Source: Psychroserpens sp. SPM9
GTDB taxonomy: Bacteria; Bacteroidota; Bacteroidia; Flavobacteriales; Flavobacteriaceae
DNA length: 64,000 nucleotides
Assembly: GCF_025153525.1 (NCBI RefSeq)
Contig: NZ_JANZNR010000003.1
Location: 1 to 64,000 of the forward strand
Direction of reading: 5' to 3'
In this document: piece by piece, positions 2,426 through 56,934 of the stretch
How positions within the stretch are numbered: position 1 is the stretch's first letter
Layout of the letters: each line of letters opens with the position of its first letter
Notes under the pieces: generated by a model
What the model was told of the DNA's origin: nothing
Seen by the model: only the letters and a program-made list of their open reading frames with translations
The model's database searches: none
Position numbers and translations under genes: made by a program

Positions 2426-2495
2426 AAGTCGACTATGGTCATGTATTCTTGCTCTCAAATTATTGTTTGTCTAAGTTAATTTTCAAAATGGATTT

Positions 2496-2503
2496 CAAAT
2501 ATA
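2496..2503 (-). promoter_or_regulatory. Candidate Bacteroidota -7 promoter box (TATATTTG)
   Basis: On the minus strand this reads TATATTTG, an exact match to the TAnnTTTG box used by the Bacteroidota housekeeping sigma factor. It lies about 70 bp upstream of the ATG at 2425. No strong -33 TTG box is obvious, so this is a candidate only. Confidence 0.4.
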
Positions 2504-2547
2504 AAACAGCTATACGGATCTAATTCCTACTTTAAATTGTTTCTCTA

Positions 2548-4419
2548 TTATTTTTTAATAATTAAGAATTCTGATCGTCTGTTTTGAGCATCTTCTTCAT
2601 CGGTACAATTAGATTTACAGTCAATCTTAGGTTCTTGACTTCCTATGCCTTCAGCAGATAAACGCGCTTTATCAATGCCTTTAGAAATAAGATATTGTAC
2701 AGTTGCTTGAGCACGTTTTTCAGATAGGTTTAAATTGTAACTCGCTGTTCCTTTTGAATCGGTATGCGATCTCACCTTAATAGACATGTTTGGATAATCA
2801 TTCATGATTTTCACTAATTTATCCAATTCAAAAGCACCTTGTTGTGTAATGTTACTTTTGTTAAACTCGAAGTAGATGTTTTGTAATTTTACTTCAGTAT
2901 CTGTGATAATTTCATTGATGGGTTGTAGTGAAATTTTAACCATTGTTTCATCGTCTTTAGATTCTGAAACAGGGATTGAAACAGTTTCGAAGCCTTCTTT
3001 AGAGACGGTAAGTTTGTAATTAGTGTCACAGCCTACTGTAAAATCTGTCTCGCCTTTAGCATTTGTTTCTTGAGTTGCTATAGTATTATTTTGGGCATCA
3101 GTGATAGAAACATTAGCATTGGATATAGCTGTATTGTTTTCAGCATGCTTAACAAGTGCAATAATATCAAATTTACAAATAGGTATTGCGATATAGATTT
3201 GATCTACGCCAGATCTGTTTGAAGAAAAGTAACCGATTTTTTTAGAAGTATTCACACTAAAAGAAAAATCGTCTCTTTTAGTGTTGATTCCGTTTCCCAG
3301 GTTTTCAGCTTTTTCATTTTTATTAAGGTCAATTTTAAAAATATCAAAACCTCCAAATCCTTGTCTTCCAATGGAAGCAAAATAAAGAATATTATCATCG
3401 CTAATAAACGGAAAGCCTTCTTTACCTGCAGTATTTACATTAGGACCTAGGTTTTGTGGTTTTCCGTAGGAATTACCATTAACACTAATTTTCCAAATAT
3501 CAGTATCTCCCAATCCGCCAGGCATATTAGAGGCAAAATATAACGTTTTACCATCGCTGCTTAAACTTGGATGGCTTACGGTATAATCGTTGCTATTGAT
3601 AGGTAATGCTTGCACATTGCCCCATTTTCCATCAACAAAGGTGGCTTTGTACAAACCTTGTTGTGCCAGTTTTACTTTTTTATTTTTTATTTTTTTGAAA
3701 CTCCCTTCACTATGTCCATCTCTGGAGAAAAACATGGTTTTTCCGTCGGCACTAATTGTAAGTGGCCCATCATGATAAATGGTGTTTAATTCTTCAACTT
3801 CTTCAGGGTCTGATAAAGAACCATCGTCTTTTCTAACCGATTTATAAATGTCTAAATAGGGTTGGTTTGTCCAACGATCTTCTTGTTTTGAATTATTTCT
3901 TGTGCTTACAAAGTAAAGAATATTATCGTTTGACAACACGGCTCCAAAATCACTCTGCTGGCTGTCATTTATTGTAGTTTCTTCAACCTCGAAAGATTTC
4001 GTTTTATCGGCTAACTGCGGAATGTAATTAGGATTTGATAAATGCATTTTTGCACGTTGATCATCTGGTGATAGTTGAGCAAACGTATTCATTTGTTCGT
4101 TGGCTGCTTCATACTTTCCTTGAGATTTTAATACTTGAGCATAGCGGAAGTAAGTTTCGGCATCTTGTTTAGTTTCTATAGCAGTGGCATACCATTTAGC
4201 GGCTTCTTCAATATTAAAAACGCTGTAATAACTGTCGGCCAATCGCTTATAGGTTTGTGCGTCGGCTTCTTTATTTTTAACCAGTTCTAAATAGGCTTCA
4301 ATAGCATCAACATATTGATAGCTTTCAAAAAGTTTGTTGGCTTGCTCAATTTTTTTGCTTTGTCCGTAGCTTATTGCAATAATGAAGAATAAACAAGAAA
4401 GACTATATATTTTTTTCAT
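2548..4419 (-). CDS. OmpA-family protein with TPR, PD40 beta-propeller and carboxypeptidase-regulatory-like domains
   Basis: The 623-residue protein has a signal peptide ending near SYGQ. TPR-like helices cover about residues 25-130, and WD40-like/PD40 blades about 150-420, with recurring motifs such as SxDGKTLYFASxxPGGxGxxDIW. A CNA-B/carboxypeptidase-regulatory-like beta domain lies at about 425-495. The C-terminal OmpA peptidoglycan-binding domain spans about 510-623, with the YFEFNKSNI start and the NLxLSExRAxxV motif. This architecture is known from the gene that follows sprF-type genes in Flavobacteriia, and T9SS-linked OmpA proteins are thought to anchor the outer-membrane machinery to peptidoglycan. 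It sits 19 bp downstream of the PorP/SprF gene and probably shares its transcript with the giant adhesin upstream. Confidence 0.9.
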   Translation of the reverse strand: MKKIYSLSCLFFIIAISYGQSKKIEQANKLFESYQYVDAIEAYLELVKNKEADAQTYKRLADSYYSVFNIEEAAKWYATAIETKQDAETYFRYAQVLKSQGKYEAANEQMNTFAQLSPDDQRAKMHLSNPNYIPQLADKTKSFEVEETTINDSQQSDFGAVLSNDNILYFVSTRNNSKQEDRWTNQPYLDIYKSVRKDDGSLSDPEEVEELNTIYHDGPLTISADGKTMFFSRDGHSEGSFKKIKNKKVKLAQQGLYKATFVDGKWGNVQALPINSNDYTVSHPSLSSDGKTLYFASNMPGGLGDTDIWKISVNGNSYGKPQNLGPNVNTAGKEGFPFISDDNILYFASIGRQGFGGFDIFKIDLNKNEKAENLGNGINTKRDDFSFSVNTSKKIGYFSSNRSGVDQIYIAIPICKFDIIALVKHAENNTAISNANVSITDAQNNTIATQETNAKGETDFTVGCDTNYKLTVSKEGFETVSIPVSESKDDETMVKISLQPINEIITDTEVKLQNIYFEFNKSNITQQGAFELDKLVKIMNDYPNMSIKVRSHTDSKGTASYNLNLSEKRAQATVQYLISKGIDKARLSAEGIGSQEPKIDCKSNCTDEEDAQNRRSEFLIIKK

Positions 4420-4438
4420 TTTAAAGAGATTTTTTGGA

Positions 4439-5374
4439 TTAGAAGAATCGAGGTGAAATGGATACTTTTTTAGGGAAATTCAAATCAAACAGTAAGAAAA
4501 CTTCGTGTGATGAAGATGTCGCAGCTGAAAGTTCTGAAGTAATATAATCATAGGCATATCCTATTCGAATTCCGGGAGAAACAGCAAAATTAGCCATAGC
4601 TCCAATAGCATCATCTAAGCGGTATGTTGCACCGAGCTCAAAGCGTTCATTAAATAAGAAATTCCCTGAAACATCCAGAGATGTTGGTGCTTCAAAAGCC
4701 GATTTCAACATGAATGATGGCTTGAATTTGGTGTTTTCAGAAAGGTTAAACACATAACCACCAGATAAGAAATAATGTTGTACATCAGAACCATAAGTAA
4801 ATTCTTGACCGTTATTTGTGATATCGAGATAGGTGTTGTTTAACATATTAGGAATAGCAAAAGATACATAATATTTTTTGGTGTAATAAAAGAAACCAGC
4901 ACCTAAATTTAAATGTGTATTATTTGAGTTTTCACTGAAAGCTTCATCGTTCATGTCGTTTACAAATCCATTTCCTATATCACTAAAGAGCCCGATATTT
5001 TGAATGGTAGCTCCCGCTTTTAAACCGAAAGCCAAGCGATGATCTCCACCAAGTTTTAGGGTATAAGAGAAATCGGCATAGACATTGTTTTCTTCAACAG
5101 GCCCTATTTTATCTGAAATGACAGATAGCCCTAATCCAACATTTTTACTTATCGGACTATGAACAGAAAGGGTTGCTGTTTTAGGCGCATCATTGATATT
5201 AACCCATTGTGTACGATATAACAATCCAATAGCTAGATTCTCTTTAGAGCCGGCATATGCAGGGTTAACCACATTCATGTTATACATATATTGTGTGTAT
5301 TGCGGATCTTGCTGTGCATGAGTACTTACGAAAATCGCAAGTGAAAAGACAAGTGTGAAATATATAGTTTTCAT
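4439..5374 (-). CDS. PorP/SprF-family type IX secretion outer-membrane protein
   Basis: The start is placed at the ATG at 5374, which gives a clean signal peptide (MKTIYFTLVFSLAIFVSTHAQ); an ATG 18 bp upstream only adds an unlikely extension. The mature protein opens with DPQYTQYMYNMNVVNPAYAGS, the hallmark of the PorP/SprF family, and continues as a beta-barrel of about 310 residues. SprF-like proteins are known partners for export or surface attachment of proteins carrying type B (gliding-motility) C-terminal domains. The gene lies 30 bp downstream of a 2413-residue protein with exactly such a domain, so it is very likely that protein's dedicated partner. It is followed 19 bp later by the OmpA/PD40 gene. 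Confidence 0.92.
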   Translation of the reverse strand: MKTIYFTLVFSLAIFVSTHAQQDPQYTQYMYNMNVVNPAYAGSKENLAIGLLYRTQWVNINDAPKTATLSVHSPISKNVGLGLSVISDKIGPVEENNVYADFSYTLKLGGDHRLAFGLKAGATIQNIGLFSDIGNGFVNDMNDEAFSENSNNTHLNLGAGFFYYTKKYYVSFAIPNMLNNTYLDITNNGQEFTYGSDVQHYFLSGGYVFNLSENTKFKPSFMLKSAFEAPTSLDVSGNFLFNERFELGATYRLDDAIGAMANFAVSPGIRIGYAYDYITSELSAATSSSHEVFLLFDLNFPKKVSISPRFF

Positions 5375-5404
5375 TTGTATATGATATTGCATGTTGTTAG
5401 TTGA

Positions 5405-8400
5405 TTATTGCGCTCTATTGATATAAATCCATCCGGTATTTGTACTTCCATCTTGTTTTTCGATGTTGTAGAAATACGTGCCATCTGGAAGTTCATTTCC
5501 TTTATTAGATTGTCCAAACCATTGGTTGGTATAATTGCCTCTAAACTGGTAGACTTCCCGACCATGACGATTAAAGATAGTAATGTGTGTGACGCCTAAA
5601 CCAGTTAGATCTAAAGTGTCATTTTTACCATTTCCGTCTGGAGAGATACCTCTCGGAATTTGACGTTCGATACAGGCTAACTGTTCTGCTGTAAATGTTT
5701 GTGTTGTAGAGCAACCGCCTAAGGTTACGGTCACCGAAAATTGAACAGGAGCCGTCAGATTTTGATTTAATGCATAAGTACTTACATTGAAATTTTCCGA
5801 GTTTTCACCAACACTGTTTCCGTTGGCATCCATCCATTCAAACGTCGCATCATTCACATTGAAGGAACTGTTAAGGGAAGAAGCGGTTAAAATGTAATCA
5901 CTATCAACACATTCTCCTTCAATTACGACAGCTAAATCTTCTAAAATAGTGATGTCGAATGTACTCATTCCGCTTTCAATACAATCATCAATAGCTTCTG
6001 AAAATTGGTAAGTTACGGTATAGCTACCAACATTGCTTGCTGCGATATTAATATCTCCAGTGGCACTATCGATGGCTAATCCACTTTCTGAAGCAAAGGT
6101 ACCGCCTGTTGTAAAGTCTGTACCTAAAATAGGAGCGATATTACTATTATCTGCACAGTAAATAGTATCAGCGTAAGCAAAGTCTGTGTTAGGTGCTATA
6201 CTGGTGCTAATCACAATACTTGTTGTTGATGTTCCGGCACCAGAGCAGGTATCTGCGTCAGCTTCTACAGAATAAGTAATATCATGTGTGCCAGCAGTGG
6301 CCGACGCTAAATCTACTTCGCCTGTGTTTGGATCAACAGTTATAGTTGCTGCGCTAAACGTACCTCCAGTTGTAAAGTTGGAATCTAAGTTTGGTGTAGG
6401 ATTTGTGTTCAATAAGATACAATAGGCTTCAGTTCCGTAATTAAAATCGGTAACAGGCGTCGAAGCAGCAGTAAAGGTTATTGTCGCTGTAAACGTTCCA
6501 GCCGAAACACAATTATCTTCATCACCATCGTAAGTGTAGGTTACATCATGTGAGCCTTCTGTAGCCGAAGACATATCAATTTCACCAGTCGTAGCATCAA
6601 CGGTTAGTGTTGCAGATGTAAATACACCACCAGTAGCAAATCCGTCACTTAAATCAGGAGAAGGGTTGGTGGTAGCTACAACACAGGTATCAGCAAAACT
6701 GAATGTAAGTTCTGCATCGAAAGATTCGCTGACTTCAACAATGATTTCAGCACGCGGACCTTCACAGCCTTCAGTATCCATATAAGCAACATAGTATGAG
6801 GTTGTATTGACAACCGAAGTGTCTGGCGTAGGAGCCGTTGTGCTTCCTGTGCCACCAACAGCTTGCGTGTACCAAACTAAAGTATATGTTCCAGATTCGG
6901 AAGCTGTAAGTTGTTCCGCAGTATCATTGAGACAATATTCAATAGGTGATTCTACGGTTGGCGTCTCAGCAATACCGTTGTATACAATTTCAATATCGTA
7001 TGAACAGTAGCGTGTTTGCCAAGTAAACGTATAGGTACCTGGTTGAACAAAGTTGTTGATTGTTGTCGTGTTGCTATTAGAATCGGTTATACTTACGGTT
7101 CCTGGATTGTTTTCACTAGCGATCCAAGTTCCGGTTCCGTTGGCTTCTACAGCCGCAGTTGCATTGTCACAATCTACTGTAAATGGTTCTGTAATAATTT
7201 CATTATTTGGTAAGAAATTAACGGCATCAATAACATTTCCAATATCATCGCCATCACTAGCTCTAAAGATAATTCGGGTGTTTGTTTGACCATTAGGAAC
7301 GATGTATTCTCCTGTAACTAAGGTCCATGCTTGTGTAACTCCTACATGATTATTAATCATGGTATAAGGGCCACCCACAGGACCAGCAAAAAGTTGAATG
7401 GTATTACCATCAAATCGTGCAAGGTGTGCAAAACTATAATCCATTAATGTGATTTCAGATGTATCAAAATCTCTGTAATACCCTTTTATATTAGGATCGT
7501 TAGGATCTATCGTTGTCCCTTGGTCAGATAATATTTGAACACTTTGTCCGCCTTCATAAGCTGTAAAGCCAGGCGCATTAAGAGTTTCCCAGTAAAATAT
7601 ATTGTTAGATGAATCTAAGTTTGAACGCCATCCTGGAATTGTATTTACTGAAATAATAGTGTTTATACCACTTAATCCGTTTAACGTAGGTTCTTCAAAT
7701 CCGCCATTAACGGTATCAACCAAACATAAATCTTCTGGAGTCTTGACACAGATATTGAAACGATATTCAGTAGTATCTGGAGTTGTTAAGGTTAATCTTA
7801 CTTTATAGTTATCACCTACAATTAATTCAGAAGTATACATTGCAACGATAAGATTATCATAGCTACAAACCATTTCTTGAAGGTTGCCTCCACCATTATC
7901 TTTGTAAAGAGTCATGACAATTTCCGGATATAAAGGATCACCATTGCTGTCACGTAAGCTTCCGTTGAAGCTGTTGATTTCTATGATATGAATCATTGAT
8001 TCCGCAGTAAAGTCAAACCAAACATCACCTTGATTTGTTCCATCACAGGTCATCATTTCGGAGGAGACTGAAGCATTAATAAATGAAACATTAGAAACAG
8101 ATTCGTTACAAACCTCATTTGAATTTATTGGTAAGCTAATAGCATTTGAAATATCATCATTTCTAACAAATTCAAAAGGGCCAGACCAATAACTCTCATC
8201 ATCTGTACCACAAACCGCTCTTACGAAATACTCATAGGTTGCAACATTTGGATCTACAAAATCGGAAGCAGTTGGTGTATAAGAACTGGTTGTTACCAGC
8301 GTTCCAGATTGTGGTAATGTACCATTTTGGAATGGCTGAACAGCAACTTCCCATTGTGTTTCGCTACCACCTGGTGTCCAAGAAAACACAGACGTATCAC

Positions 8401-11400
8401 TGATGGTTAAATCGGTTGGTTGCGGACAAGTAACAGTGCCACAGATAGCAGTTCCTTCATAAACAACTGTTCTTAGAAGGATACCTGTAGGACTTGAATA
8501 AACGATGTTGTTTGAAGCATCTAGTATGTCAAACTGATAATCGTCATATTGAGGTTGTGAACTTCCTAAGGTGTTGAAGAATACAGAAAACTCAACTCCA
8601 GAACAAAGGAATACACTAAAACTTTCATCGGTATTTCCTTCAAAAGGAATAGACTGTACAACCTGATTGTTTTGTGTAATATCTAAACTAGCCGAAATAT
8701 CGGAATCGCTAGTGAGTATAAATGTGTACTGACATAAGTTATCAAAACTACATTTTGTGGTTACAGTTTCAGGTCCTGTCCATTCTCCTTGATTACCATC
8801 ACAAACAGCTCTCACGTAGATATCATACATGGTTGAAGCATCAAGTCCGGTAACCGTAAACGGATTTGTTGGAGCGTTATATAAATAACTCGGATCGGTA
8901 TCACCTACAGGAGCAGGTGTACCAGAAGGTTGCACTGAAATTTCCCAAGCGGTTTCAGAACCATTTGACTCCCAAGCCACTTGAACAGCAGTATCTGTAA
9001 TGTTATTAAGAACAATATTTGTTGGTTCAGGACAGTCTGGAATGTCTTCGATGTTTACATTATCGATTGCCAGTGTTTGTCCTCTGTAAGGTCCAGTACT
9101 TGGAAAGAATGGTACATGAAAAGCGATGTTCACATCACCAGTAATTCCAGCTGGGAAATTGATAATTTTAACCTTGTACTCTTCATTGTTAATCACTACT
9201 GGGTCATCATCAGAATCGTATAATACTGTAGTGAACTGATCGAGGCCAATTCCATTTGTAGATAACAGCACTTCTAAATCTTCAGTAAAGAAGCTATCAT
9301 TCACGCGATAGTAGTAACGCAGACGCTGATTTTCAGAAATAGTAATAGTAGGAGAAATTAACCAATCTTCATTTTGACCATTCGTTCCGGTAAACATCAC
9401 TGCAGCTTGATCACCTTCATAAGGAAAGGAAGCACTGTTTAATTCCCAAGTTTCTAAATCTTGGTTGTCATTTACAACGGTCCAGCAGTTTTCTGAATCA
9501 GAATCGGAATTAAAAGTTTCCACAAAAGGAGCTGTAAATGCTGGACACTGCGTATTAAAAGTAATTGGACCAACCCATTCGCTTGAGTTGTCGCCACAAT
9601 CTGCCATCACATAAAATTCGTAAGCTGTATCTGGCATTAAATCGGTCGCTGTATAACTTGTCTCGGTCACAGATTCACCATTCGTTGTTGGAATCCCTGA
9701 ACCTGCTGGTTGAACAACAATATTCCAAGATGTTTCTTGAAAACCACTAGTCCAAGATAAGTCTGCACTATCAGTAAAAGTAGAATCCACTGTCAAATCT
9801 GTAGGATTCGGACACGCAGGTGCGTCAGTAATACTTACATTGTCAATATCAAGAACTGTAGCAGGTCCCGAATATGTTGGTGGTACTCTAAATGCGATAT
9901 AAATAGTTCCTGAGCCTTCAATGATTAAAGACTTTTCGATATAGCTTGAATTGGTAAAAGTTTCCAGCGGAGAAATTACGGTAAAGCTAGTTGGATTTGT
10001 ATTTGTTGTAGATATCAATACTTCGAGACCAAAATGAGGAGGTCCTGTGAAGAAAGAAAAAGGAGATCTGTAGCTGTATTTAAGTTGTTTAACACCATCA
10101 ATATTTATAGCAGGTGAAATTAAATAATCATTAAAATCTGCAGCCGCTCCAGATAGTGTTGCATGTGTTTCGTTTATAGTCCAGGTGTTACCGTCATTAT
10201 TATTGTCGTTAATTTCCCAACAAAACTTTTTAGTATCAGGATCTTCATCATCAAAGCTTTCAAAAAATGGCGTATCGTACGATTCACATAAGGTTGTGAA
10301 AGCTACTGGTCCTACCCATTCACTTTGGTCATCTTCTCCACAATAGGCTCTTACATAAAACTCATATCTTCTCCCAGAGTCTAAATCGGTAGCCATATAA
10401 GGAGAATTACTATCAACTAAAAGACCACTAGTCGTTGGTACACCAGAGTCTAAATCTTGAATAGCCACTTCCCATTGTGTTTCGGCATCACCAGGAGTCC
10501 ATAATAACCAAGCCGAATTGGTTGAAATACTAGACCCTAAAACAAAAGGATCTAAGGGATCAGGACATGTTGGTTTATCTTCGATAAATACATCGTCAAT
10601 TGAAAGCCTTAAAGCGGTTTCAGTTGTATTTGGTTCAACAATAAAGGCTATGTTTACGATGCCAGTTATAGTTTCAGGAATATCCACAATTATTTCTTGG
10701 AATGAGGTGTTGTTAATTGTGGTTTCAGGTAAAATAGTAGTAGTGAAATTATCCACGCCAACTCCTGTTGTTGATAATTTTACGGTATAAGTTGAAACAC
10801 CTTGCGTTGCTCTATGCTTATATCTCAATCGCTTTTGTACACCATCAAAATTTATTTGAGGAGACACATATAAATCATTGTTTTCAAATTGCGACACGTT
10901 AGTAACTGTCGTTGCATAACCTCCAATAAAAGCCCATGTTGTGCCGTCGCCATTAGCATCTATTGTTGTCCAGCAAGGCTCAGGATTGGCGTTGGTAGCA
11001 TTTGCAAAATCAGTTGAATAAGGCGTGTTAAAAACTGTACATTGTGTAGTAAATGTTGAAGGTTCGCTCCAATTTCCGGCGGCACCATCACAAATAGCTC
11101 TCACATATATATCATAGGTTGTTGCTGGAGCTAGACCAGTGTTAATGACATTATCAATATTGGAGTTAGTTGGTGTACCAGAACCATTAGGCTCACCAGA
11201 ACCTGTTGGAACAACTGTATATTCCCAAGAATCTGCAAAACCACCAATATTATCCCAAGAGAAGCTTACGCTGTCTTCGGTTAAATTACTGTATACTAAG
11301 TCGCCAGGAGGAGCGCAGGTAGGACTTGAAATGACTAATTCAAAGCAAATTCCTGCAGTTGGAGACAATTCAGAAGACACTACAATAATATAGGTTTCGC

Positions 11401-27662: not shown

Positions 27663-28493
27663 ATGAAAAAGATTTTAATTCCGACAGATTTTTCGCTAAA
27701 CAGTTATCAAACCATAGACTATATCATTCAACTTTTTGCTAATGAATGTTGTGAGTTTTATTTCTTGAATTCATACAATTATACGGTTTCAGGTTTGAAT
27801 GCCATTGAAATGCTTCATGCAGACGACGATTGGTTTGATAAGCCTAAAAACGAATCTATTGAACAATTAGGTAAATTAATAGAGCGTTATACATTAAAAT
27901 CTAAAAATTCCAAGCATGAATTTAATGCTATTTCTGAGCAACATAATTTGGTAGACAGTATAAAGAAAACTATAAAGAGTATACCTATTGATTTAATGGT
28001 GCTCACGGGTAAAACTGAAAAAACAGTAGGAAAGCATACCGAAAGCATACTAAAGAAAATAAGATGCTGTCCTATTTTGATTGTGCCACCACATGCCTCT
28101 GCCAGCAAAGGAATTTACCTTACTATTGCTTCCGATTTTAAACGAAAAATAAATACGCTTGAAATTGATAGGTTTGTCAAGGTCTTAGAAAACACGAAGG
28201 TTGATGTCGGAATTTTAGTTTTAGAAGAGCAAAATACATTAGCAGATGAGTCTAAAAACAATTTAGAAGCATTAATAAGCGCACTAAAGCTAACGCTAAG
28301 TCAGGATATAGATTTAGAATACATTCAGCCTACATTTCGACTCAAAGATTACGCAAGATCACACCATGATGGCATTATGTGCATTATAGATAATAAACCA
28401 GACTGGTTGAGACAATTAGGACTTTATAAATCTAAGGCCATATCTATATTAGAAAAGTTAAGGACAAATACAGTACTAACAGTACATCAGTAA
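27663..28493 (+). CDS. Universal stress protein family protein, tandem-domain
   Basis: The 276-residue cytoplasmic protein begins with MKKILIPTDFSLNSYQTIDYII, the canonical USP N-terminus. The first USP domain ends with a TGKTEKTVGKHTESILKKIRCCPILIVPPHA segment that resembles the family's nucleotide loop. A second, degenerate USP-like half follows from about residue 150 to the end (GIYLTIASDFKRKI ... VLTVHQ). USPs are linked to stress and starvation survival; the biochemical role is unknown here. It has its own 176-bp upstream region with the inverted repeat at 27591 and follows the sigma-54 gene run on the same strand. Confidence 0.85.
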   Translation: MKKILIPTDFSLNSYQTIDYIIQLFANECCEFYFLNSYNYTVSGLNAIEMLHADDDWFDKPKNESIEQLGKLIERYTLKSKNSKHEFNAISEQHNLVDSIKKTIKSIPIDLMVLTGKTEKTVGKHTESILKKIRCCPILIVPPHASASKGIYLTIASDFKRKINTLEIDRFVKVLENTKVDVGILVLEEQNTLADESKNNLEALISALKLTLSQDIDLEYIQPTFRLKDYARSHHDGIMCIIDNKPDWLRQLGLYKSKAISILEKLRTNTVLTVHQ

Positions 28494-28566: not shown

Positions 28567-30333
28567 TCAATTCAATGTCAAGTCAATAATTGGAATTCGT
28601 ATTTCATAACTCTCATCATTATCATAATAAACTACTTTTAAAAATATTGAAGCAGCAGTAGCAGGGAAAACATTCTCCCATATAAGATACGAAGTTTTTA
28701 AATATGATTTTTTCAAGTATCTTACATACTTTGATTCCTCAATTTTTTGAGACAAATAAGTGTCATTCAAATTACCTGACTCTGTGCCAGATTTTATTTG
28801 TTTTATAGGTGACCACAATTCATCAGAAGTATTGTTGTATTTGCACTTGCAAACAATTGCTGGAAATTTTACTCCCTTTGCAAAAGCTAATTTTTTTTTC
28901 GAAAATAACGCATCCCAGGATTTTTGCTTTTCATAGATTCTATTACTTTCTTTTTTGTCATCAGTAGATTTCTTTACAGGTCTTTCTCCAACTTTATAGC
29001 ATTCAAATGATTTTGAATCAATTTTTGTTTTTAATTTTAATTTGTTTGTTAGCTTTTGGAGTGTTTCCCAACTCTTAAATTCATATTCATAAGGTCCTAG
29101 TACTTCTCCGCTTAACAAAGTAAACTTTAAGGATATTTTTTTTGATGTGGTTATTACAGGTATTTCAAAAATGGAATAAACACCAGTTTTATAATTTGTC
29201 AATGGATTTATTTTTTCATATTCATCAGAATCATATGCGTATGAAACGTGGGTAGTGTATGCCGGAGTTTCTGGTAGGATTTTTAAAGGATTCGGTGATA
29301 TAAAAATTGAAGGCAATTCTCCTTTCTTTATGTTTATAGGTTTTAGTGAGTAGCCTATTCCCTCTATATTTGGCTGATTACTTATATTTTTTACTTCGTA
29401 TATTTTACTTCTTTCGTTATTTTCAAATTGATATTGATAATACATGGAAGTTGAGCCAACGCGTTTTGGAATATGTACCTGGTTTTTATTGTAGACGGTA
29501 TCATTTAAGATTGCTTTCAGGTCAATGGTTCGGTTCAGATAATTCTTGTTTTCACCAAAATTTAACTGCTTTAGTTTTTTAATGTCATCAGTAAATAAAT
29601 CATCAAATGACTTAAATCTATTTTTATCTATACTGAAAAGAAATAAATCTCTGTCCTTATAACTTAAACTCCCATAATTGTTAAAGCCCAAGGCTTTTTT
29701 TATATTTTCATTTTTTCTTTCTTCTACGGTCGATTTGTCAAAAAATGAATTCGTAATTTCGTGCAGAGCACTAATCTTTATAAACTCACCAATAGTTCCG
29801 TCACTATCTATATTTATAACCATTCCTATAATTTCGTTATCAAATTTGATAGCTGCACCTATCATTTCAGTTGAAAATAGTGAGTCGCTTTTGGGTATGA
29901 TTGTAATATATTTTTCGCCTATATTTTTAATAGAAACAGGAATTTGTAAACGACTTTTGTTCTTTTGGATGATTGATAAATTTGCTTTGAATGTAAATCC
30001 GTTAGTATAATCTATTATTTTATCATTGTCCCAAGGGTCACTAACTATATTAGATTTTTTGCTAGGTAATTTTAAAATAACTAATTCTTTATTATAGTAA
30101 CCGCTGACCCTTATCGCATTTGTTTCAAAATCATTTATCCCAAAAACTTTCGCATCAACTTGAGTATCTTCAAAAAGAAGTTTTGGAGCGATAATATAAT
30201 TTTCACTATTGTAACTTCTGAGTATACCTGCCCCAATTTTATTTGTGTGAATCCCTACTTGCTTTTGAGTGTAAACCTTCTGACAAATACATGCAAACAG
30301 AATCATAAAGACTAATGATTGAAAAGCCCTCAT
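28567..30333 (-). CDS. Secreted trypsin-fold pseudoprotease, paralogue of the upstream protease
   Basis: The 588-residue protein has a signal peptide (MRAFQSLVFMILFACICQKVYTQ). It aligns along its full length with the 582-residue protein encoded just upstream. The positions matching the trypsin-like triad are altered: IIAPKLLF has Lys51 for His, KELVILKL has Glu83 for Asp, and EMIGAAIKF has Ile158 for Ser. Hydrolytic activity is therefore not expected. The shared C-terminal half of about 350 residues contains conserved segments such as GPYEYEFKS, IKSGTESGNL and FLKVVYYD and matches no family I know. It overlaps the protease gene by 4 bp, so the pair is made together. A regulatory, scaffold or inhibitor-decoy role is inferred. 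Confidence 0.8.
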   Translation of the reverse strand: MRAFQSLVFMILFACICQKVYTQKQVGIHTNKIGAGILRSYNSENYIIAPKLLFEDTQVDAKVFGINDFETNAIRVSGYYNKELVILKLPSKKSNIVSDPWDNDKIIDYTNGFTFKANLSIIQKNKSRLQIPVSIKNIGEKYITIIPKSDSLFSTEMIGAAIKFDNEIIGMVINIDSDGTIGEFIKISALHEITNSFFDKSTVEERKNENIKKALGFNNYGSLSYKDRDLFLFSIDKNRFKSFDDLFTDDIKKLKQLNFGENKNYLNRTIDLKAILNDTVYNKNQVHIPKRVGSTSMYYQYQFENNERSKIYEVKNISNQPNIEGIGYSLKPINIKKGELPSIFISPNPLKILPETPAYTTHVSYAYDSDEYEKINPLTNYKTGVYSIFEIPVITTSKKISLKFTLLSGEVLGPYEYEFKSWETLQKLTNKLKLKTKIDSKSFECYKVGERPVKKSTDDKKESNRIYEKQKSWDALFSKKKLAFAKGVKFPAIVCKCKYNNTSDELWSPIKQIKSGTESGNLNDTYLSQKIEESKYVRYLKKSYLKTSYLIWENVFPATAASIFLKVVYYDNDESYEIRIPIIDLTLN

Positions 30334-32078
30334 ATTTTCTTAAAATTTTTAATATCAAGTTTGAATATTGGGCTTAAGGATTTATCATAGAACACTAATT
30401 GTAAATATACATGAGTAATCGAAGTAGGATATATTTCTTGCCATTTAAAATTACTTGACTTTTCGTCCTTAGGAATATTTACAACAGAGACGAGATCTAA
30501 ATTTGTCCTATCAGTTCCTGATTTAATAGAACTAACCGCTTTCCATTCAGAAGTTGTAATAGGTATAAAATTAAATGGGTTTTTAGGATTGTCCGGACGT
30601 GCAGAAGCGCATGCAATTAAAGGAAATTTTTGATTCTTTTTAAACGATAGGTTAAATAGGTCTAATTGAATATCACGTGTTTTTAATTTTTGCTCGGATA
30701 GGACTTTAGCTAATTGATCTGAATTGTCATAAGAAGTCCATTCTTTTGGAATTGGTTTCACATTATAACAATTAATAAGCCCACTATTCATCGAAGAAAT
30801 TATTTTTGCTTTCGCAGTTTCTAGAAAAACAGCATCTCTATTTTTAAATTCGTAATGTAAAGGACCTATTATATTTCCATCTTCTAAAGTTAATTTTAAG
30901 TATAATTCTTTGGCCGATTTTGGGATTTTAATTTTGTATAAAGGATATGGACCATGATTTTCAGGGTTTTCTGAAAAAAAACCATTGTTGTCAAAGGAAT
31001 AATTTAGAATTTTAGTTCCAACAGGAACAATAGGAGTAAAGGAGAAATCTGGATTCACAAGAACTCTGATATCAAAGTTTTGTGTTTTATTCGTAGGCTT
31101 AATTTCATAACCTTCTCCATGGCCTAGCTTATTTGTGGTTATGGCCTTAACTTCAATAATTTGACTTTTTTCTCCGTTATTAAACTCAGCCTGTACAAAC
31201 ATTTTTTCGGCCCCAATTCTACGATGTATATACTGTCGTGTCTTCATTGGAATTCGTGACGAATTAAGTTTTTCTAAATCGATTACTTGAAATAAATCAT
31301 TTTTGTTCTCTCCTGCGAAGAGTTTTTTAAGAACAATTGTTCTAGATTTAGAATCTTTAATTTGAGTTTTTTCAGAAAATTGGCAACCATGAAAAGGAAG
31401 GCACAAAATTGTGGAATTGACATGATCTTTGAAAGCCTCATTCTTTTCGGCAGAGGTGATTGATTCTAAGGACAAATCAGAATTAAAATAAGAATAAGTT
31501 ACACCCATGATAACTTCTTTCTTTATTACTTTTCCTTGACCATTATCAGTATTAACACTAAGTAACATTCCAACTACTTTCCCATTATATCGCAGTGTTG
31601 CACCGCTCAGACCTTTGTAAAGGCTTTGCTCTCCTGCTATCGGTTCTATGGTAATATATTCAAATCCAGATGTCTTAATTAAAACTTGAATTGCGCTTAC
31701 ACTTCCATCGACTTCTGTATACGTCAGAATACCTTCTGAATTGTTCGGAATTTGAATATTTGTTTTCTCCCAAAGATTTGATGGTAATTTATCTTCAACT
31801 ATTTTTAAAATAGCCAAATCATAATCTTCATAAGATCTTACTATTTCAGCATTTTTACTAGAAGAACTCATAGATTTCATTCCGATCACAACAACTCGAT
31901 CATCTGTGGTTAAGTTGTCTACGACATGATAAGGACATATTATAAAGGTCTCTTTTTTCTGTGTCCAAACAAGACCTTTTCCAATTTTTGACTTTGTTTT
32001 GATATAAACCGGTCTTTGTGCTTGAGCAAAATTTCCGAGAGTTAAAACGCATAATAGAAAAAGAAACAAAGATTTCAT
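30330..32078 (-). CDS. Secreted trypsin-like serine protease with unknown C-terminal domain
   Basis: The 582-residue protein has a signal peptide ending at FAQAQ. The N-terminal ~190 residues carry a chymotrypsin-fold signature: IICPYHVVD (His51), EDYDLAILKI (Asp87) and KGLSGATLRYNGKVVGMLL (Ser158, as GxSGA rather than the more common GNSGG/GxSGP). All three catalytic residues are present in the right order and spacing, as in HtrA-like trypsins, but there is no PDZ domain. The C-terminal ~350 residues form an unrecognised module shared with the downstream paralogue. It would act in the periplasm or outside the cell. It lies third in a four-gene operon, 8 bp after the two-TM protein gene. Confidence 0.8.
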   Translation of the reverse strand: MKSLFLFLLCVLTLGNFAQAQRPVYIKTKSKIGKGLVWTQKKETFIICPYHVVDNLTTDDRVVVIGMKSMSSSSKNAEIVRSYEDYDLAILKIVEDKLPSNLWEKTNIQIPNNSEGILTYTEVDGSVSAIQVLIKTSGFEYITIEPIAGEQSLYKGLSGATLRYNGKVVGMLLSVNTDNGQGKVIKKEVIMGVTYSYFNSDLSLESITSAEKNEAFKDHVNSTILCLPFHGCQFSEKTQIKDSKSRTIVLKKLFAGENKNDLFQVIDLEKLNSSRIPMKTRQYIHRRIGAEKMFVQAEFNNGEKSQIIEVKAITTNKLGHGEGYEIKPTNKTQNFDIRVLVNPDFSFTPIVPVGTKILNYSFDNNGFFSENPENHGPYPLYKIKIPKSAKELYLKLTLEDGNIIGPLHYEFKNRDAVFLETAKAKIISSMNSGLINCYNVKPIPKEWTSYDNSDQLAKVLSEQKLKTRDIQLDLFNLSFKKNQKFPLIACASARPDNPKNPFNFIPITTSEWKAVSSIKSGTDRTNLDLVSVVNIPKDEKSSNFKWQEIYPTSITHVYLQLVFYDKSLSPIFKLDIKNFKKI

Positions 32079-32086
32079 GGCAAAAA

Positions 32087-32983
32087 TTATTTCTTGTTTT
32101 TGACGTAATTCATCACTTCCATGTAGAAGCCTAATATGGCAATAATAGCTATCAGTACAGTGAAAATTATTGATGTTCCTCTAAAAAAATCGTCGTAAAG
32201 AAATTTATTAAGTAATGAAGATTGCACTGGATATTCATCACCACCAGGCCTAATGATTTTTGCATTATTGCCAGACATTCGATTTATAAATGATAATGCA
32301 GGTTCTTCATTTATAGATATAAAACCATAATTAGGACTATCAAGCTCATCGACGATAAATTGATCACCAATATTGAGTTCAATTTCTCCTGCCTGATAAA
32401 TAGTATTACCGTCGACTGATCGATTAAGTAAACTTACTTTTCCAGATTTTAAAATGGGTACGGTAGATTCTGTTTCATAGCCAACAGGTCTACTTGATTT
32501 TATTTTTGATTCCACACCAATTATTGGTAAAATAATTGTTTCTCCTCTTTTGGCTCTTTCCAAAATATTATCTACATAAATCTCAGTTTTTTTTGGAATT
32601 TTTCTAATAAACTTATCATCATAGCCTATGTATTCTCCAGAATTTTCTTCGTTAGTAAATAGTTTTATATACAATGGTCCATTTGAAATTCTTTCAATTT
32701 CAACATTTACTAACGACCCAATTACTATTGAACCTGTGTATTGAATTGTGTCTTTATAATTTTCTATTATTAAAGCATCATCAAAACTCCATCTTGACTC
32801 CATTTTTTTACGCGTCAAAAACTCAATGGATTCTGTTTTAGCAGTGATATTATAAGTTGTGGTAAGAGATGAGTTTGAAATTTGATGTGCTAAAACAATC
32901 AAAGTAATTATAGAAATTAATATTATAAATATTGATAATATGACAATTTTAAATCTATTTAGATACAGAAAAATGTTTTTCAT
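32087..32983 (-). CDS. Membrane protein with N- and C-terminal transmembrane helices, unknown family
   Basis: The 298-residue protein has one helix at about residues 12-34 (FKIVILSIFIILISIITLIVLA) and another at about 268-290 (IIFTVLIAIIAILGFYMEV). They bracket a periplasmic domain of about 230 residues with beta-rich sequence (VNVEIERISNGPLYIKLF, GETIILPIIGVES, SGKVSLLNRSVDGN). No family was recognised. It overlaps the upstream gene by 4 bp and precedes the protease gene by 8 bp, so it probably forms an envelope complex with the secreted proteins of this operon. Confidence 0.7.
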   Translation of the reverse strand: MKNIFLYLNRFKIVILSIFIILISIITLIVLAHQISNSSLTTTYNITAKTESIEFLTRKKMESRWSFDDALIIENYKDTIQYTGSIVIGSLVNVEIERISNGPLYIKLFTNEENSGEYIGYDDKFIRKIPKKTEIYVDNILERAKRGETIILPIIGVESKIKSSRPVGYETESTVPILKSGKVSLLNRSVDGNTIYQAGEIELNIGDQFIVDELDSPNYGFISINEEPALSFINRMSGNNAKIIRPGGDEYPVQSSLLNKFLYDDFFRGTSIIFTVLIAIIAILGFYMEVMNYVKNKK

Positions 32984-33678
32984 TTTTTTATAGGTAACTC
33001 AATATCAATTTTAAAACTTCTTTTTCTCTCTCGAATAAATAATTTAATTTTTGAATCAATATATTTCATTGGGATTTTACACGATTGATTGTATGCTACT
33101 TTTAGGTAATTATCTGATTCAATTTTTGAGAAATCTTTTTCGAATTCGATTTCGTTATTTTCGAAAGCAATAATACTTGCCTGGTTACGAGTGTTAATAT
33201 AGACGATAAAAAAGTCTTCTGAAACATCTTTGTCCCAAGTAGTCAAAACAAATGAATTAGAAGATGTATTACAATTGGAACCAATACTTGCCAAAACGGT
33301 AATCTCTTCTGGTGAATACTTTCGTAATTTAGATTTATGTTTTGTAGGAAAATGAAGTTTGATTAAACCTGGTGCTTCTTTACTAATATCGTAATTTAAT
33401 TTTGCCGAATATCTACCATCTAATGATACAATTGATAAGCATAAAAAATCGCTCTCGGAGTCAGGAATTAGAACTGTTAAATATTCTGGATTTATAAATT
33501 TTAATTTAGTGTAAGATAAAATTCCGACTCTTTTTTCTCCATTTATGGGTCGATTATTTGTCCAGTTTTCTTCAAGGTTTATAGGTTCTAAAGAAGTACT
33601 AGAACTCTGTGAAAATAACTTATTCGAGTTGAGAGAAACGAACAAGATCAAAAGAAGGAGAAATTTGTTAGTAACCAT
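32980..33678 (-). CDS. Secreted protein of unknown family, first gene of the protease operon
   Basis: The start is placed at the ATG at 33678, giving MVTNKFLLLLILFVSLNSNKLFSQ as signal peptide; an ATG 21 bp upstream is possible. The mature part of about 210 residues is beta-rich (EYLTVLIPDSESDFLCLSIVSLDGRYSAKLNYD) with two separated cysteines and a basic C-terminus. No recognised motif is present. Its stop overlaps the start of the two-TM gene by 4 bp, making it the likely lead gene of the four-gene operon. Confidence 0.65.
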   Translation of the reverse strand: MVTNKFLLLLILFVSLNSNKLFSQSSSTSLEPINLEENWTNNRPINGEKRVGILSYTKLKFINPEYLTVLIPDSESDFLCLSIVSLDGRYSAKLNYDISKEAPGLIKLHFPTKHKSKLRKYSPEEITVLASIGSNCNTSSNSFVLTTWDKDVSEDFFIVYINTRNQASIIAFENNEIEFEKDFSKIESDNYLKVAYNQSCKIPMKYIDSKIKLFIRERKRSFKIDIELPIKK

Positions 33679-34156
33679 TGTAACTGTAATTTGATTCATT
33701 ATTCGTTGGTCTAGATTTACAATCTCAATATTGATCGGGATATATAATTATTCTTAAGTATCTGAATAAGATAAAACTACAAAATATTAATGAACAAACA
33801 AAAAACTATACTTGTTCAGTTTTTCTGACATTATTTAACTTTGATATATTAGTAGGAAGTAGGAAAAAATAGATTAATAGTCAATGTTGAAGACTCTGAC
33901 CTCAGCAAAACAAATACCTTAAAAGGATGAGCAAAATGTAAAACATGACACAAATTATGATGCTCAAACTCATTGATATTGCTTAGGTTTACCTAAAAGC
34001 ATTAAATACCATTTTAACGACAGAAAAACAGATTTCTTAAATGTCTAGAATCTGAAATGCAGTTGAGAAGTAAAATAGAAGAACCTACTCAATCGCACTT
34101 AGAACCAGTCAAATCTTATAAAAAAAAGGCCTACGATAGTTGATCACAAAGGTTTT

Positions 34157-34170
34157 GCGGAGAAATAGGG
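34157..34170 (-). repeat. Relic of a tRNA-Ser 3' end (older attachment scar)
   Basis: The sequence GCGGAGAAATAGGG, followed by ATT, matches the plus-strand copy of the tRNA-Ser 3' end at 56041 (GCGGAGAAAGAGGGATT) with one mismatch in 17. It is 124 bp outside the left core repeat of the present element and has no tRNA body attached. The simplest reading is a scar of an earlier integration at the same tRNA. Confidence 0.5.
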
Positions 34171-34217
34171 ATTATTTCATACCCGCTCTTTAAGCATTTT
34201 GCAAATGCTAATAGCTT

Positions 34218-34280: not shown

Positions 34281-34293
34281 GCGGAGAAAGAGG
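34281..34293. repeat. Left core repeat (att) of the mobile element
   Basis: GCGGAGAAAGAGG is identical to 56041-56053, which is the 3' end of tRNA-Ser on the opposite strand. This is the expected duplication made by a tyrosine recombinase that inserts into tRNA 3' ends. Confidence 0.75.
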
Positions 34294-34353
34294 TAAGTGA
34301 ACCTCTTTCGTAGTGCCTTTATTTATTACTGTTTCAGTCCTGTACCATTGTTG

Positions 34354-34372
34354 GGTCACCTAATAGGTCACC
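34354..34372. repeat. Arm-type repeat inside the left end
   Basis: GGTCACCTAATAGGTCACC consists of two direct GGTCACC heptamers 5 bp apart. It is identical to 55921-55939 at the other end. Such repeats flanking att cores are typical integrase arm-binding or Xis-binding sites. Confidence 0.65.
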
Positions 34373-34798: not shown

Positions 34799-35548
34799 AT
34801 GGCAAAATTGAAAGGTATTATTAAGTTAGAAGGAACGTTAGACAATCTAACTTTTTACAAAGCAAAAGAGGGTTATTTAGTAAAAACTAAAGGCGGTGTT
34901 TCTAAAGAGCGTATTCAAAATGACCCAGCGTTTGAACGTACTCGTGAAAACGGTTCAGAATTTGGAAGTTCTGCATCATCTGGTAAGTTATTGAGAACAT
35001 CAGTTAGAAACTTAATGATTAGAGCAAAAGACAATCGAGTTTCAAGTCGTGTTACTCAAAAAATGACACAAATTAAAAACTTTGATACAACCTCTGTAAG
35101 AGGACAAAGAAATGTAGCTACAGGATTAGCAACACCAGAAGGTAAAGCCACATTAAAAGGCTTGGATTTCAACAATAGAGCCATTTTAAGTGCTGTTTTA
35201 TTCGCTCCGTTTACTGTAGATGGTGCGACAGGTGAAATTACTATCCCAAATTTAACACCTACAAATGATATTGCATATCCAAGTGGCGCAACACACGTAA
35301 GTTTAAGTTCAGCATTTCTAAAAGTTGACTTTGATACTACAGATAAAGCAATCGAATACAGTCCTACTGTAAATATTCCGATTGATTCAACGTCTGCAAC
35401 GCAAACACTAACTCCAGCAGGTGTGCCAACAGGTACAGGAAACGATATATTCGTTTTATTAGTAGAGTTCTTCCAAGAGATTAACGGTGTTCAGTATCCG
35501 CTTAAAAATGGCGCATATAACGTTTTAAATATCGTTGAAGTAGCATAG
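34799..35548 (+). CDS. Unknown protein of the mobile element (249 aa)
   Basis: The N-terminal ~110 residues are basic (LKGIIKLEGTLDNLTFYKAKEGYLVKTKGG ... SVRNLMIRAKDNRVSSRVTQKM), and the C-terminal half is beta-rich with Thr and Pro (IPIDSTSATQTLTPAGVPTGTGNDIFVLLVEFF). The overall feel is of a structural or phage-tail-like protein, but I recognise no family and assign no function. There is no signal peptide. It is the only plus-strand gene in the element, has its own terminator immediately downstream and a 209-bp upstream region shared with the divergent 62-residue gene. Confidence 0.7.
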   Translation: MAKLKGIIKLEGTLDNLTFYKAKEGYLVKTKGGVSKERIQNDPAFERTRENGSEFGSSASSGKLLRTSVRNLMIRAKDNRVSSRVTQKMTQIKNFDTTSVRGQRNVATGLATPEGKATLKGLDFNNRAILSAVLFAPFTVDGATGEITIPNLTPTNDIAYPSGATHVSLSSAFLKVDFDTTDKAIEYSPTVNIPIDSTSATQTLTPAGVPTGTGNDIFVLLVEFFQEINGVQYPLKNGAYNVLNIVEVA

Positions 35549-54552: not shown

Positions 54553-55803
54553 TTAATTAGCGATTCTTTTGGAAGCATCAACATTACTTTTATCAGCAAA
54601 TTTTTGTTTCAAAATTGCCATATCATCGCTTACTTTTCTATCCAATATTTTAGCATAGTGTTGCGTTGTTTTTAGTGATTTATGACCTAACATTTTACTA
54701 ACTGATTCCATTGGCACACCATTAGACAATGTTACCGTAGTTGCAAACGTATGACGAGCTAAATGGGTGGTTAAGTTTTTATTGATACCACACAAATCTG
54801 CTATCTCTTTTAAATAGGCATTAGACTTTTGATTGCTCAATACAGGAAGCAATACATCTTTTGTAACTGCCTCTGGATGGTTCTCGTATTTCTTTATAAT
54901 CTCTAAAGCAGTCGGAAGTAGGGGAATGTTACTACGTGTATCTGTTTTAGTACGCTTTGTCTTTATCCACTTATCTCCATCAATACCAAATACCAAATTA
55001 TCTTTTGATAGTTTCTTAACGTCGCTATACGCTAAACCTGTAAAACAACAGAATATAAAAATGTCTCTTACTTGCTCTAATCTATTAGTGTGTAACTCTT
55101 TTTCGAGCATTGTTTGTATTTCTTCTTCTGAAAGAAATTGACGTTCCACTTCTTTTAAACGGACTTTATAATTTAGAAATGGGTCTTTTTTAATCCAATC
55201 GTTTGCTATTGCAATACGTACAATCTTTTTAAAATTCTTGATATACTTAATTGTACTGTTATGTCCGCAGTTTCTAACCGTTTTTAAATAGAACTCAAAA
55301 TCTGTAATATACTTGTGGTCTATTCTGTTTACAGGTATATCACTTACATTGTATTGATGTTGCATAAACTCTTGCAGATGCTTACATACTGTTTTATAAC
55401 GTTCTAAAGTTCCTGCTGAAAACTCTCTACCAACTAATTTTTCAACTTGCTTGTTGTGATTATTAAAGATGGTTATGAGTGTTCTTTGTTTTTCCTCAAC
55501 ACCTAAAAACTTGTTTTTAAGGGTTTCGGTTGTAACCTCCTTGTTATCTTGAATTAAGTCTCTTTGGCTTTGATATACTTTTGTAGTAAGTGAATCTAAA
55601 TAGGCATTTAGTTCTCGTATATCTTCTGTTCTTCCAATAGCTTTATTGGCTTCAACGCTCCATTTCTCAATCTCAATGGTACGTTTTGTACTAATCTCTG
55701 TACGCTTACCATCTATGGTAATACGTAGGTAAATAGGGCATTTGCCCTGTGCATCTACTTTACTCTTTTTTAAGTAGAATAATAATCCAAATGTTTTGTT
55801 CAT
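54553..55803 (-). CDS. int: Tyrosine recombinase/integrase, IntDOT-like
   Basis: The 416-residue protein has an N-terminal arm-binding region (to ~100), a SAM-like core-binding domain (~105-205) and a catalytic domain (~220-400). Catalytic residues include the HxxR box HLARHT (His347, Arg350), His374 in LGHKS and nucleophile Tyr383 in QHYAKI. The position of the first Arg holds Ala258 in TGLAYSD, the same kind of replacement known in IntDOT-type Bacteroidota integrases. It sits 235 bp from the tRNA-Ser 3' end with the arm-type repeat in between. This identifies it as the recombinase that inserted this element. Confidence 0.95.
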   Translation of the reverse strand: MNKTFGLLFYLKKSKVDAQGKCPIYLRITIDGKRTEISTKRTIEIEKWSVEANKAIGRTEDIRELNAYLDSLTTKVYQSQRDLIQDNKEVTTETLKNKFLGVEEKQRTLITIFNNHNKQVEKLVGREFSAGTLERYKTVCKHLQEFMQHQYNVSDIPVNRIDHKYITDFEFYLKTVRNCGHNSTIKYIKNFKKIVRIAIANDWIKKDPFLNYKVRLKEVERQFLSEEEIQTMLEKELHTNRLEQVRDIFIFCCFTGLAYSDVKKLSKDNLVFGIDGDKWIKTKRTKTDTRSNIPLLPTALEIIKKYENHPEAVTKDVLLPVLSNQKSNAYLKEIADLCGINKNLTTHLARHTFATTVTLSNGVPMESVSKMLGHKSLKTTQHYAKILDRKVSDDMAILKQKFADKSNVDASKRIAN

Positions 55804-56038: not shown

Positions 56039-56126
56039 TGGCGGAGAAAGAGGGATTCGAACCCCCGGAGGTGTGACCCTCAACAGTTTTCAAGACTGCC
56101 GCATTCGACCACTCTGCCATTTCTCC
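56039..56126 (-). tRNA. tRNA-Ser (anticodon UGA)
   Basis: The minus strand reads GGAGAAATGGCAGAGTGGTC at the 5' end, with a long variable arm, TTCGAATCCC in the T loop and TTTCTCCG CCA at the 3' end. The acceptor stem GGAGAAA pairs perfectly with TTTCTCC. The anticodon loop CTTGAAA gives anticodon TGA. The encoded CCA (56039-56041) falls at the element junction. At the left att copy the corresponding bases read CAA, so the element appears to supply the CCA. Confidence 0.95.
56041..56053. repeat. Right core repeat (att) within tRNA-Ser
   Basis: GCGGAGAAAGAGG is the plus-strand image of the tRNA-Ser 3' end and is identical to 34281-34293. It marks the right junction of the mobile element. Confidence 0.75.
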
Positions 56127-56304
56127 AGTGTATCTCATCAGGTATTCCCTGAATGCGGATGCAAATATAGAACCCTTTTTTATTTCTTTCAAATAAAAAG
56201 TGCTTTTTTTAAATGATTTAATAATACTATAGAATTATTTTATAACATAAACCCTTTAAAATAGATATATGAGCTTTATTTTTGCACCAATATTAGCGAT
56301 TTAT

Positions 56305-56934
56305 ATGACAACTATAGATAAATTAAAATGGCGCTATGCCACAAAAAAATTTGATGCCTCCAAAATTCTTTCCAAAGAAAAACTAGAGATATTAAAAGAA
56401 GCCTTTAACTTAACGGCAACCTCTTTTGGACTCCAAACGATTAGCTTAGTTGTATTAAAAGATAAAGCACTCAGAGAACTATTAGTTGACCATTCGTTCA
56501 AACAAAGGCAAATTTTAGAGGCTTCTCATCTTTTGGTGATTTGTATTCAGGATAATATTCTGGAAGACGATGTCGATCAGCATTTCGATAATGTCAAAAA
56601 TATTAGAAATACACCTGAGACAATTCTTGCGCCTTATCGAAAAGATTTAAAAGACATGATGAAGAAAATGTCTATTAAAGAACGTCAAGAATGGTCGATT
56701 AAACAAGCTTATATCGCTCTTGGAAATTTAATGACGGTCTGCGCAATGGAAGGCATAGATTCTTGTCCAATGGAAGGCTTTATTCCGTCTGCATACGACG
56801 ATTTACTAGATTTGAAGGCAATGAATTTAAAGTCGGTATTATTGTTACCTGTGGGCTATCGCGCAGCCGATGACATGTTTGCCGATTTTAAAAAAGTTAG
56901 AAAACAAGTCAAAACATCGGTCATAGAACTATAA
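56305..56934 (+). CDS. Nitroreductase-family NAD(P)H-dependent oxidoreductase
   Basis: The start is taken at the ATG at 56305 (MTTIDKLKWRYATKKFD), which matches the family N-terminus; an ATG 36 bp upstream adds a hydrophobic stretch atypical of a cytoplasmic flavoprotein. The product of about 209 residues shows RYATKKFD (FMN phosphate contacts), FNLTATSFGLQTISLVVL, and MEGFIPSAYDDLLDL. It belongs to the NfsB/NfnB-like branch and should reduce nitro compounds, quinones or flavins with FMN. It begins the chromosomal side to the right of the tRNA and is not part of the mobile element. Confidence 0.9.
   Translation: MTTIDKLKWRYATKKFDASKILSKEKLEILKEAFNLTATSFGLQTISLVVLKDKALRELLVDHSFKQRQILEASHLLVICIQDNILEDDVDQHFDNVKNIRNTPETILAPYRKDLKDMMKKMSIKERQEWSIKQAYIALGNLMTVCAMEGIDSCPMEGFIPSAYDDLLDLKAMNLKSVLLLPVGYRAADDMFADFKKVRKQVKTSVIEL

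Follow-up and report, generated by a model that had tools for sequence, protein, structure and literature searches.

A mobile gene set encoding a predicted periplasmic HtrA-like protease and its membrane and secreted companions in Psychroserpens sp. SPM9 and other bacteria

Three adjacent genes, encoding a secreted protein (A), a membrane protein with two transmembrane (TM) helices (B) and an HtrA-like serine protease (C), recur as a unit, usually together with a fourth gene for a small secreted protein (D), and very probably constitute a conserved, mobile periplasmic protease system. One copy of this cassette lies in the window, the stretch of 64,000 nucleotides of Psychroserpens sp. SPM9 DNA analysed here (contig NZ_JANZNR010000003.1), in which the fourth-gene position is taken by a full-length paralogue of the protease, C'. 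The operon in the window consists of the following genes:

Gene A, 32980-33699, minus strand: 239 aa, secreted, predicted to be periplasmic
Gene B, 32087-32983, minus strand: 298 aa, two-TM membrane protein with a predicted periplasmic domain
Gene C, 30330-32078, minus strand: 582 aa, predicted secreted HtrA-like serine protease
Gene C', 28567-30333, minus strand: 588 aa, full-length paralogue of C, predicted pseudoprotease

A overlaps B by 4 bp, B and C are separated by 8 bp, and C overlaps C' by 4 bp; an N-terminal hydrophobic segment is found in all four products. From the sequences we infer that A, C and D reach the periplasm by export and that B sits in the inner membrane with one domain in the periplasm. 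A previous sequence-only reading of this region had described four tightly packed genes with such overlaps and spacing in AT-rich DNA, among them a two-TM protein with a large periplasmic domain and another secreted protein. This description agrees with the ORF coordinates, with the GC content of the operon (0.285-0.313, where much of the window has about 0.34-0.36), with the helix at each end of the structural model of B and with the hydrophobic N terminus of A. Of the span that it gave, 28567-33678, the lower end stands, but 33678 is the second in-frame ATG of a gene whose longest frame begins at 33699. No Bacteroidota promoter motif was found upstream of the operon, and the motif shows no excess across the window.

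The operon lies in a tract of inserted DNA bounded by a stress-protein gene, which is a left flank common to the sibling loci L060-L064, and by a tRNA-Ser gene. The relevant features are:

Universal stress protein gene (Pfam Usp), 27663-28493, plus strand: flank shared with the siblings, insertion boundary
Degenerate copy of the tRNA-Ser 3' end, 34157-34173, plus strand: 1 mismatch in 17, between the operon and a copper-resistance element
Second copy of the tRNA-Ser 3' end, 34281-34303, plus strand: 83% over 23 bp, probable attachment site at the left end of the copper element
Tyrosine integrase of the copper element, 54553-55803, minus strand: Pfam Phage_integrase, E 8e-18
tRNA-Ser (tga), 56039-56126, minus strand: integration site, the sole tRNA in the window, about 22 kb from the operon

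Since in the sibling L060 the stress-protein gene is followed directly by tRNA-Ser and a homologue of window positions 56269-56934, the region from 28.5 to 56.0 kb of the window represents inserted DNA. The tRNA-Ser 3' end has three matches in the window, compared with 0.08 expected. Two of the features delimit an integrative element for copper/cation resistance at about 34.28-56.06 kb (34281-56063), which is flanked by tRNA-Ser 3'-end repeats and contains cation-efflux and P-type ATPase genes, a TonB receptor, a Fur-like regulator and its own tyrosine integrase; the repeat GGTCACCTAATAGGTCACC occurs near both of its ends, at 34354 and 55921. At the left end of this element, positions 34799-35548 encode a 249-aa protein with no Pfam, NCBIfam or PADLOC match. 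The copper element sits between the operon and tRNA-Ser, and the operon is probably part of an older insertion in the tRNA-Ser tract, because the degenerate 3'-end copy at 34157 separates it from the copper element; an attachment copy at the left end of the operon was not found. The operon had earlier been placed beside a tRNA hotspot: it is indeed part of a tRNA-linked insertion tract, but it does not adjoin the tRNA itself.

C is, as predicted from its sequence and structural model, a serine protease with the chymotrypsin/HtrA fold. Its triad H51/D87/S158, already recognized as chymotrypsin-type in the first reading, aligns with those of DegP, DegS and HtrA, and the profile of the protease domain matches the structures of HtrA, DegP, DegS and DegQ (best E 2.7e-5). 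Structure prediction, which had been proposed as a check of the N-terminal domain, returned an HtrA-type chymotrypsin fold: residues about 22-200 of the model have mostly pLDDT 70-94, and in Foldseek comparisons with the domains of HtrA1, DegS and DegQ they gave E about 1e-7 and a target TM of 0.6-0.72. The H-D-S triad, in this order and with a GxSG-type motif, is retained in all 24 C proteins of the cassette, and the sole homologue without it is C'. Beyond the protease domain, the window protein possesses a C-terminal region of about 380 residues, which was modelled mostly with low confidence except for a beta-rich stretch around residues 320-420. C resembles the HtrA family in fold, but no PDZ domain, which members of the family sensu stricto bear at the C terminus, was matched in Pfam or NCBIfam scans. 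The C-terminal part differs by lineage: alphaproteobacteria have a conserved domain there, about 120-150 residues long, and Vibrio has a series of repeated domains. Several tandem repeats end the Vibrio C proteins (L004 6920-8920 and L005 6929-9469), and those of L004 are near-identical, which suggests that the putative recognition part has expanded recently. A PADLOC match of C to the Hachiman protein HamA1 (PDLC00169) was weak (residues 31-180, E 4.9e-6) and restricted to the trypsin-like protease stretch, and this identity was rejected; the window operon, in contrast to Hachiman, includes no HamB helicase.

The paralogue C' aligns with C end to end at 26% identity (E 8e-52), and the identity is even along the length (28% for the protease domain, 29% for the C-terminal part), in keeping with the full-length paralogy, C-terminal domain included, that had been claimed before. 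At the triad columns C' carries L52, E83 and I158, and it is predicted to be a pseudoprotease. The residues originally assigned to the dead site were K51, E83 and I158; the last two stand, but the first was one column off, P-Y-H aligning with P-K-L. C' was found at this locus only: it is missing from the 23 other cassette loci, and a tblastn search of the plasmid collection with its C-terminal half gave no match. A stable pair of active and dead proteases can therefore no longer be regarded as the defining feature of the system: in a survey of the kind suggested for the four genes across genomes, A, B and C co-occur, but C' does not. The loss of the triad and the restriction to a single genome would fit a decaying duplicate without function. 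Such decay is nevertheless somewhat unlikely, given the intact frame of 588 aa, the signal-like N terminus, the overlap suited to translational coupling and a relation to C that stands at about 28% in the C-terminal part and the protease domain alike, which speaks for an old divergence with the frame undamaged. That C' functionally replaces D in the window would be a guess. A role of C' as a regulator of C is rather unlikely.

For A and B, no credible match was obtained in Pfam, NCBIfam, PADLOC or PDB. In the A family, E44, G54, G59, G95, Y97 and C207 are conserved and C87/C143 are nearly invariant, and most relatives contain four cysteines. B comprises a periplasmic beta-rich domain of about 220 residues between its terminal TM helices; its model, with helices 2-37 and 256-297, is confident in the TM helices and of low confidence at residues 147 to 264, and with a pLDDT of 53 it was left out of the fold search. 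D, a small secreted protein, contains HEAT-like repeats, its profile matching AlphaRep proteins (E 7e-6); its C-terminal part has no assigned fold, and its sequence is unrelated to that of C'. Weak Pfam/NCBIfam matches to MamE, herpes U91 and MJ1316 fell under the cut-offs and were rejected.

The recurring unit is A+B+C, usually with D. Counting the window, 24 independent loci from Flavobacteriales, Gammaproteobacteria and Alphaproteobacteria have these three genes side by side, each locus being counted once after removal of two repeats (L014 and a Cereibacter plasmid) from the result of the A-bait search. D accompanies them at 21 of the 24 loci and is absent from the window and from two Vibrio plasmids; it is common but not defining for the cassette. 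The decisive route to relatives was tblastn in plasmid records. The profile alignments of A and C were too diverse for pattern scans. With C as a query, distant homologues were detected in Pseudoalteromonas shioyasakiensis, Vibrio sp. 09022 and V. tubiashii, with A-family and B-family genes beside each, and A-family searches added loci in Rhizobium leguminosarum, Bosea, Tistrella and Cereibacter sphaeroides, one copy being located on plasmid C of the laboratory strain C. sphaeroides 2.4.1; the last four loci and that of Pseudoalteromonas include D. A scan of genome contigs with the single window protein P0001 gave no relatives, the divergence being too great for patterns. No match was found for A in the phage collection, nor among IMG/VR viral contigs for P0001, the Vibrio C protein or the Pseudoalteromonas D protein. 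A match on a Vibrio casei plasmid (L006 5902-6174) proved to be what is left of a degraded A gene, next to an IS3 transposase and an integrase, and was excluded from the count.

Linkage within the cassette was also seen with single-gene baits. D alone, searched in 84,980 species genomes (GTDB), identified nine loci, all with C, A and B adjacent, and in IMG/VR it identified one contig, which has all four genes; in total, A+B+C accompanied the D bait in 10 of 10 cases. A alone, searched in 298 genomes of one alphaproteobacterial family (that of Roseovarius), gave 11 matches including the centre genome, and B, C and D were present in 9 of the other 10 genomes. The remaining locus, L085, carries an A+B pair (8608-10435) without recognisable C or D, so A and B may serve another use as well. 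The genes are arranged differently from locus to locus: D> <C A> B>, A> B> C> <D and D> <B <A C> were all encountered in the Roseovarius-family sample, C> A> B> in V. tubiashii and A> B> C> C'> in the window. Such shuffling of order with conservation of content argues for a functional linkage of the genes.

The cassette is sporadic. Samples of 24 genomes from the genus, 200 from the family and 395 from the class Bacteroidia each yielded a single carrier, the window's own genome every time, and about 4% of the Roseovarius-family sample has the cassette. Plasmid-borne copies were found in Pseudoalteromonas, two Vibrio species, Rhizobium and others, one of the plasmids being conjugative, and a further copy was found in a Mu-like prophage (an IMG/VR contig); these plasmid and phage examples came to light partly because plasmid and phage collections were searched. 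Relaxase or T4SS genes lie near the cassette at L078 and L016. On the V. tubiashii plasmid pFP31, a gene for a protein of the metallo-beta-lactamase fold directly follows the cassette (L005 11207-12487). The sporadic occurrence on plasmids, a prophage and genomic islands may point to a role against phages or rival bacteria.

Several neighbours of the cassette are of the same tenor. In the Mu-like prophage it is located within the tail module, flanked to one side by head, neck and tail genes and to the other by genes for the tape measure, tail assembly and the minor tail, and the same prophage has a SIR2-HerA pair (PADLOC E 5e-177 for HerA and 2e-75 for SIR2); among the indications of an immunity-type role, this joint carriage is the strongest. 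The prophage SIR2-HerA genes (L059 15270-19999 and L027 1-690) are placed between head genes and neighbour genes for a DnaQ-like exonuclease, a radical-SAM-like protein and a kinase-like protein. Among the plasmid copies, a type IV restriction gene lies upstream of the cassette at L003 (E 3e-205), an Upx-like gene follows D at L009 (E 7e-35) and an HNH restriction-like gene is found beside a Vibrio copy (L004, E 8e-22). A caspase-like gene is just downstream at L077. Most chromosomal copies in Rhodobacterales are surrounded by ordinary metabolic genes, with no obvious defence islands. At L079, a bacterial alpha-2-macroglobulin gene (2431-7887) adjoins the cassette; this arrangement of a protease trap beside a protease set was seen once only and is probably a coincidence, the gene presumably belonging to the common A2M/PBP1C pair. 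A RecQ gene near L079 that matched DpdF models was taken as housekeeping RecQ and not as a defence gene. The linkage of the genes and their location are well supported. Judged from sequence, the chance that the cassette acts in conflict or defence appears about even, and the immunity-type system that was first proposed is a plausible candidate reading.

Among characterized systems, C most resembles the HtrA/Deg proteases (DegP, DegQ and DegS; MEROPS S1C), with which it shares the protease fold, the H-D-S order and, by prediction, the periplasmic location. It differs from them in its lineage-specific C-terminal regions without a recognised PDZ domain, in the constant company of A and B, and in being mobile and sporadic. 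Conflict systems centred on trypsin-like domains, with Trypco1/2, VMAP, MoxR-vWA or NucA partners, were described previously in a paper that likewise notes numerous catalytically inactive trypsin domains (eLife 2020, PMC7159879). The cassette is similar to these in placing a trypsin-fold peptidase in a patchy multi-gene set, but it is predicted to be periplasmic, and none of the four operon proteins matched their named families. Pfam/NCBIfam searches of the four genes and two flanking genes revealed no MoxR, vWA, VMAP or Trypco partner, and no STAND or NucA partner was seen either. SNIPE is an inner-membrane nuclease that acts on phage DNA as it is injected (Nature 2026, PMC13190303). It is akin to the cassette as an idea only, that of an immune protein sited where phage genomes cross the inner membrane; its catalytic domain is cytoplasmic, and the proteins are unrelated. 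The Mu-like prophage, in which the cassette and SIR2-HerA appear as cargo between virion genes, recalls the prophage-borne defence cargo of P2/P4 hotspots (PMC9122126), but the phage type differs. Searches of open-licence papers for a trypsin-like protease together with defence or periplasm found no description of the cassette. The A+B+C(+D) combination is apparently undescribed, with no named family for A or B and no named system in Pfam, NCBIfam, PADLOC or the open-licence papers.

The following mechanism could be proposed for the cassette. B would keep A and C together at the inner membrane as a complex, in which C would stay latent, as other HtrA proteases do. The variable C-terminal domain of C, or A or D, would recognise a foreign or misplaced periplasmic molecule, such as an injected phage protein or the toxin of a rival, and C, once activated, would cleave either the intruder or a membrane protein of the cassette or the host. 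In the window, with D missing, C' in the fourth place would most probably act as a non-catalytic partner or regulator sharing the binding domain of C. In its full form, this would be an immunity acting wholly in the envelope, in which a membrane-tethered, triggered periplasmic protease destroys incoming proteins of phages or toxins ahead of their passage through the inner membrane, the recognition domains are swappable and, here, a pseudoprotease replaces the HEAT-like partner; we regard it as a tentative possibility.

Other roles have to be weighed against it. The closeness of C to HtrA, DegP and DegS, the predicted location of all parts in the envelope and the ordinary genes around the chromosomal copies could point to an accessory module for envelope quality control or stress, in which B and A sense damaged envelope proteins and C degrades them, as a mobile niche trait without any part in conflict. 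Such a module is rather unlikely, considering the variable C-terminal domains and the lack of a recognised PDZ domain in C, the presence in about 4% of genomes per family or fewer, and the carriage in a prophage tail module with SIR2-HerA. A harmful periplasmic protease held in check by A, B, D or C', as an addiction or abortive-infection device, would account for the mobile carriage, for the apparent exchange of D and C' as positional alternatives and for the dead paralogue directly downstream with a 4-bp overlap, a natural dominant-negative regulator. However, HtrA proteases usually regulate themselves, the dead paralogue occurs at one locus only and the Vibrio copies have neither D nor C', and this reading is unlikely. 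Least probable is a machine for processing or assembly of a specific secreted or surface product, with C maturing A or D and B exporting or anchoring it. Such a machine would fit the way in which small secreted proteins stay together, locus after locus, with a single protease and a single membrane protein, but at the loci inspected no additional substrate gene or transporter was seen to recur next to the cassette, and the gene order reshuffles while the content stays constant.

The immune systems known in bacteria operate for the most part in the cytoplasm. If the reading of the cassette as an envelope-acting immunity is true, a mobile periplasmic-protease set, shared by Bacteroidota, Gammaproteobacteria and Alphaproteobacteria and by a prophage that also carries SIR2-HerA, would represent an envelope layer of defence.
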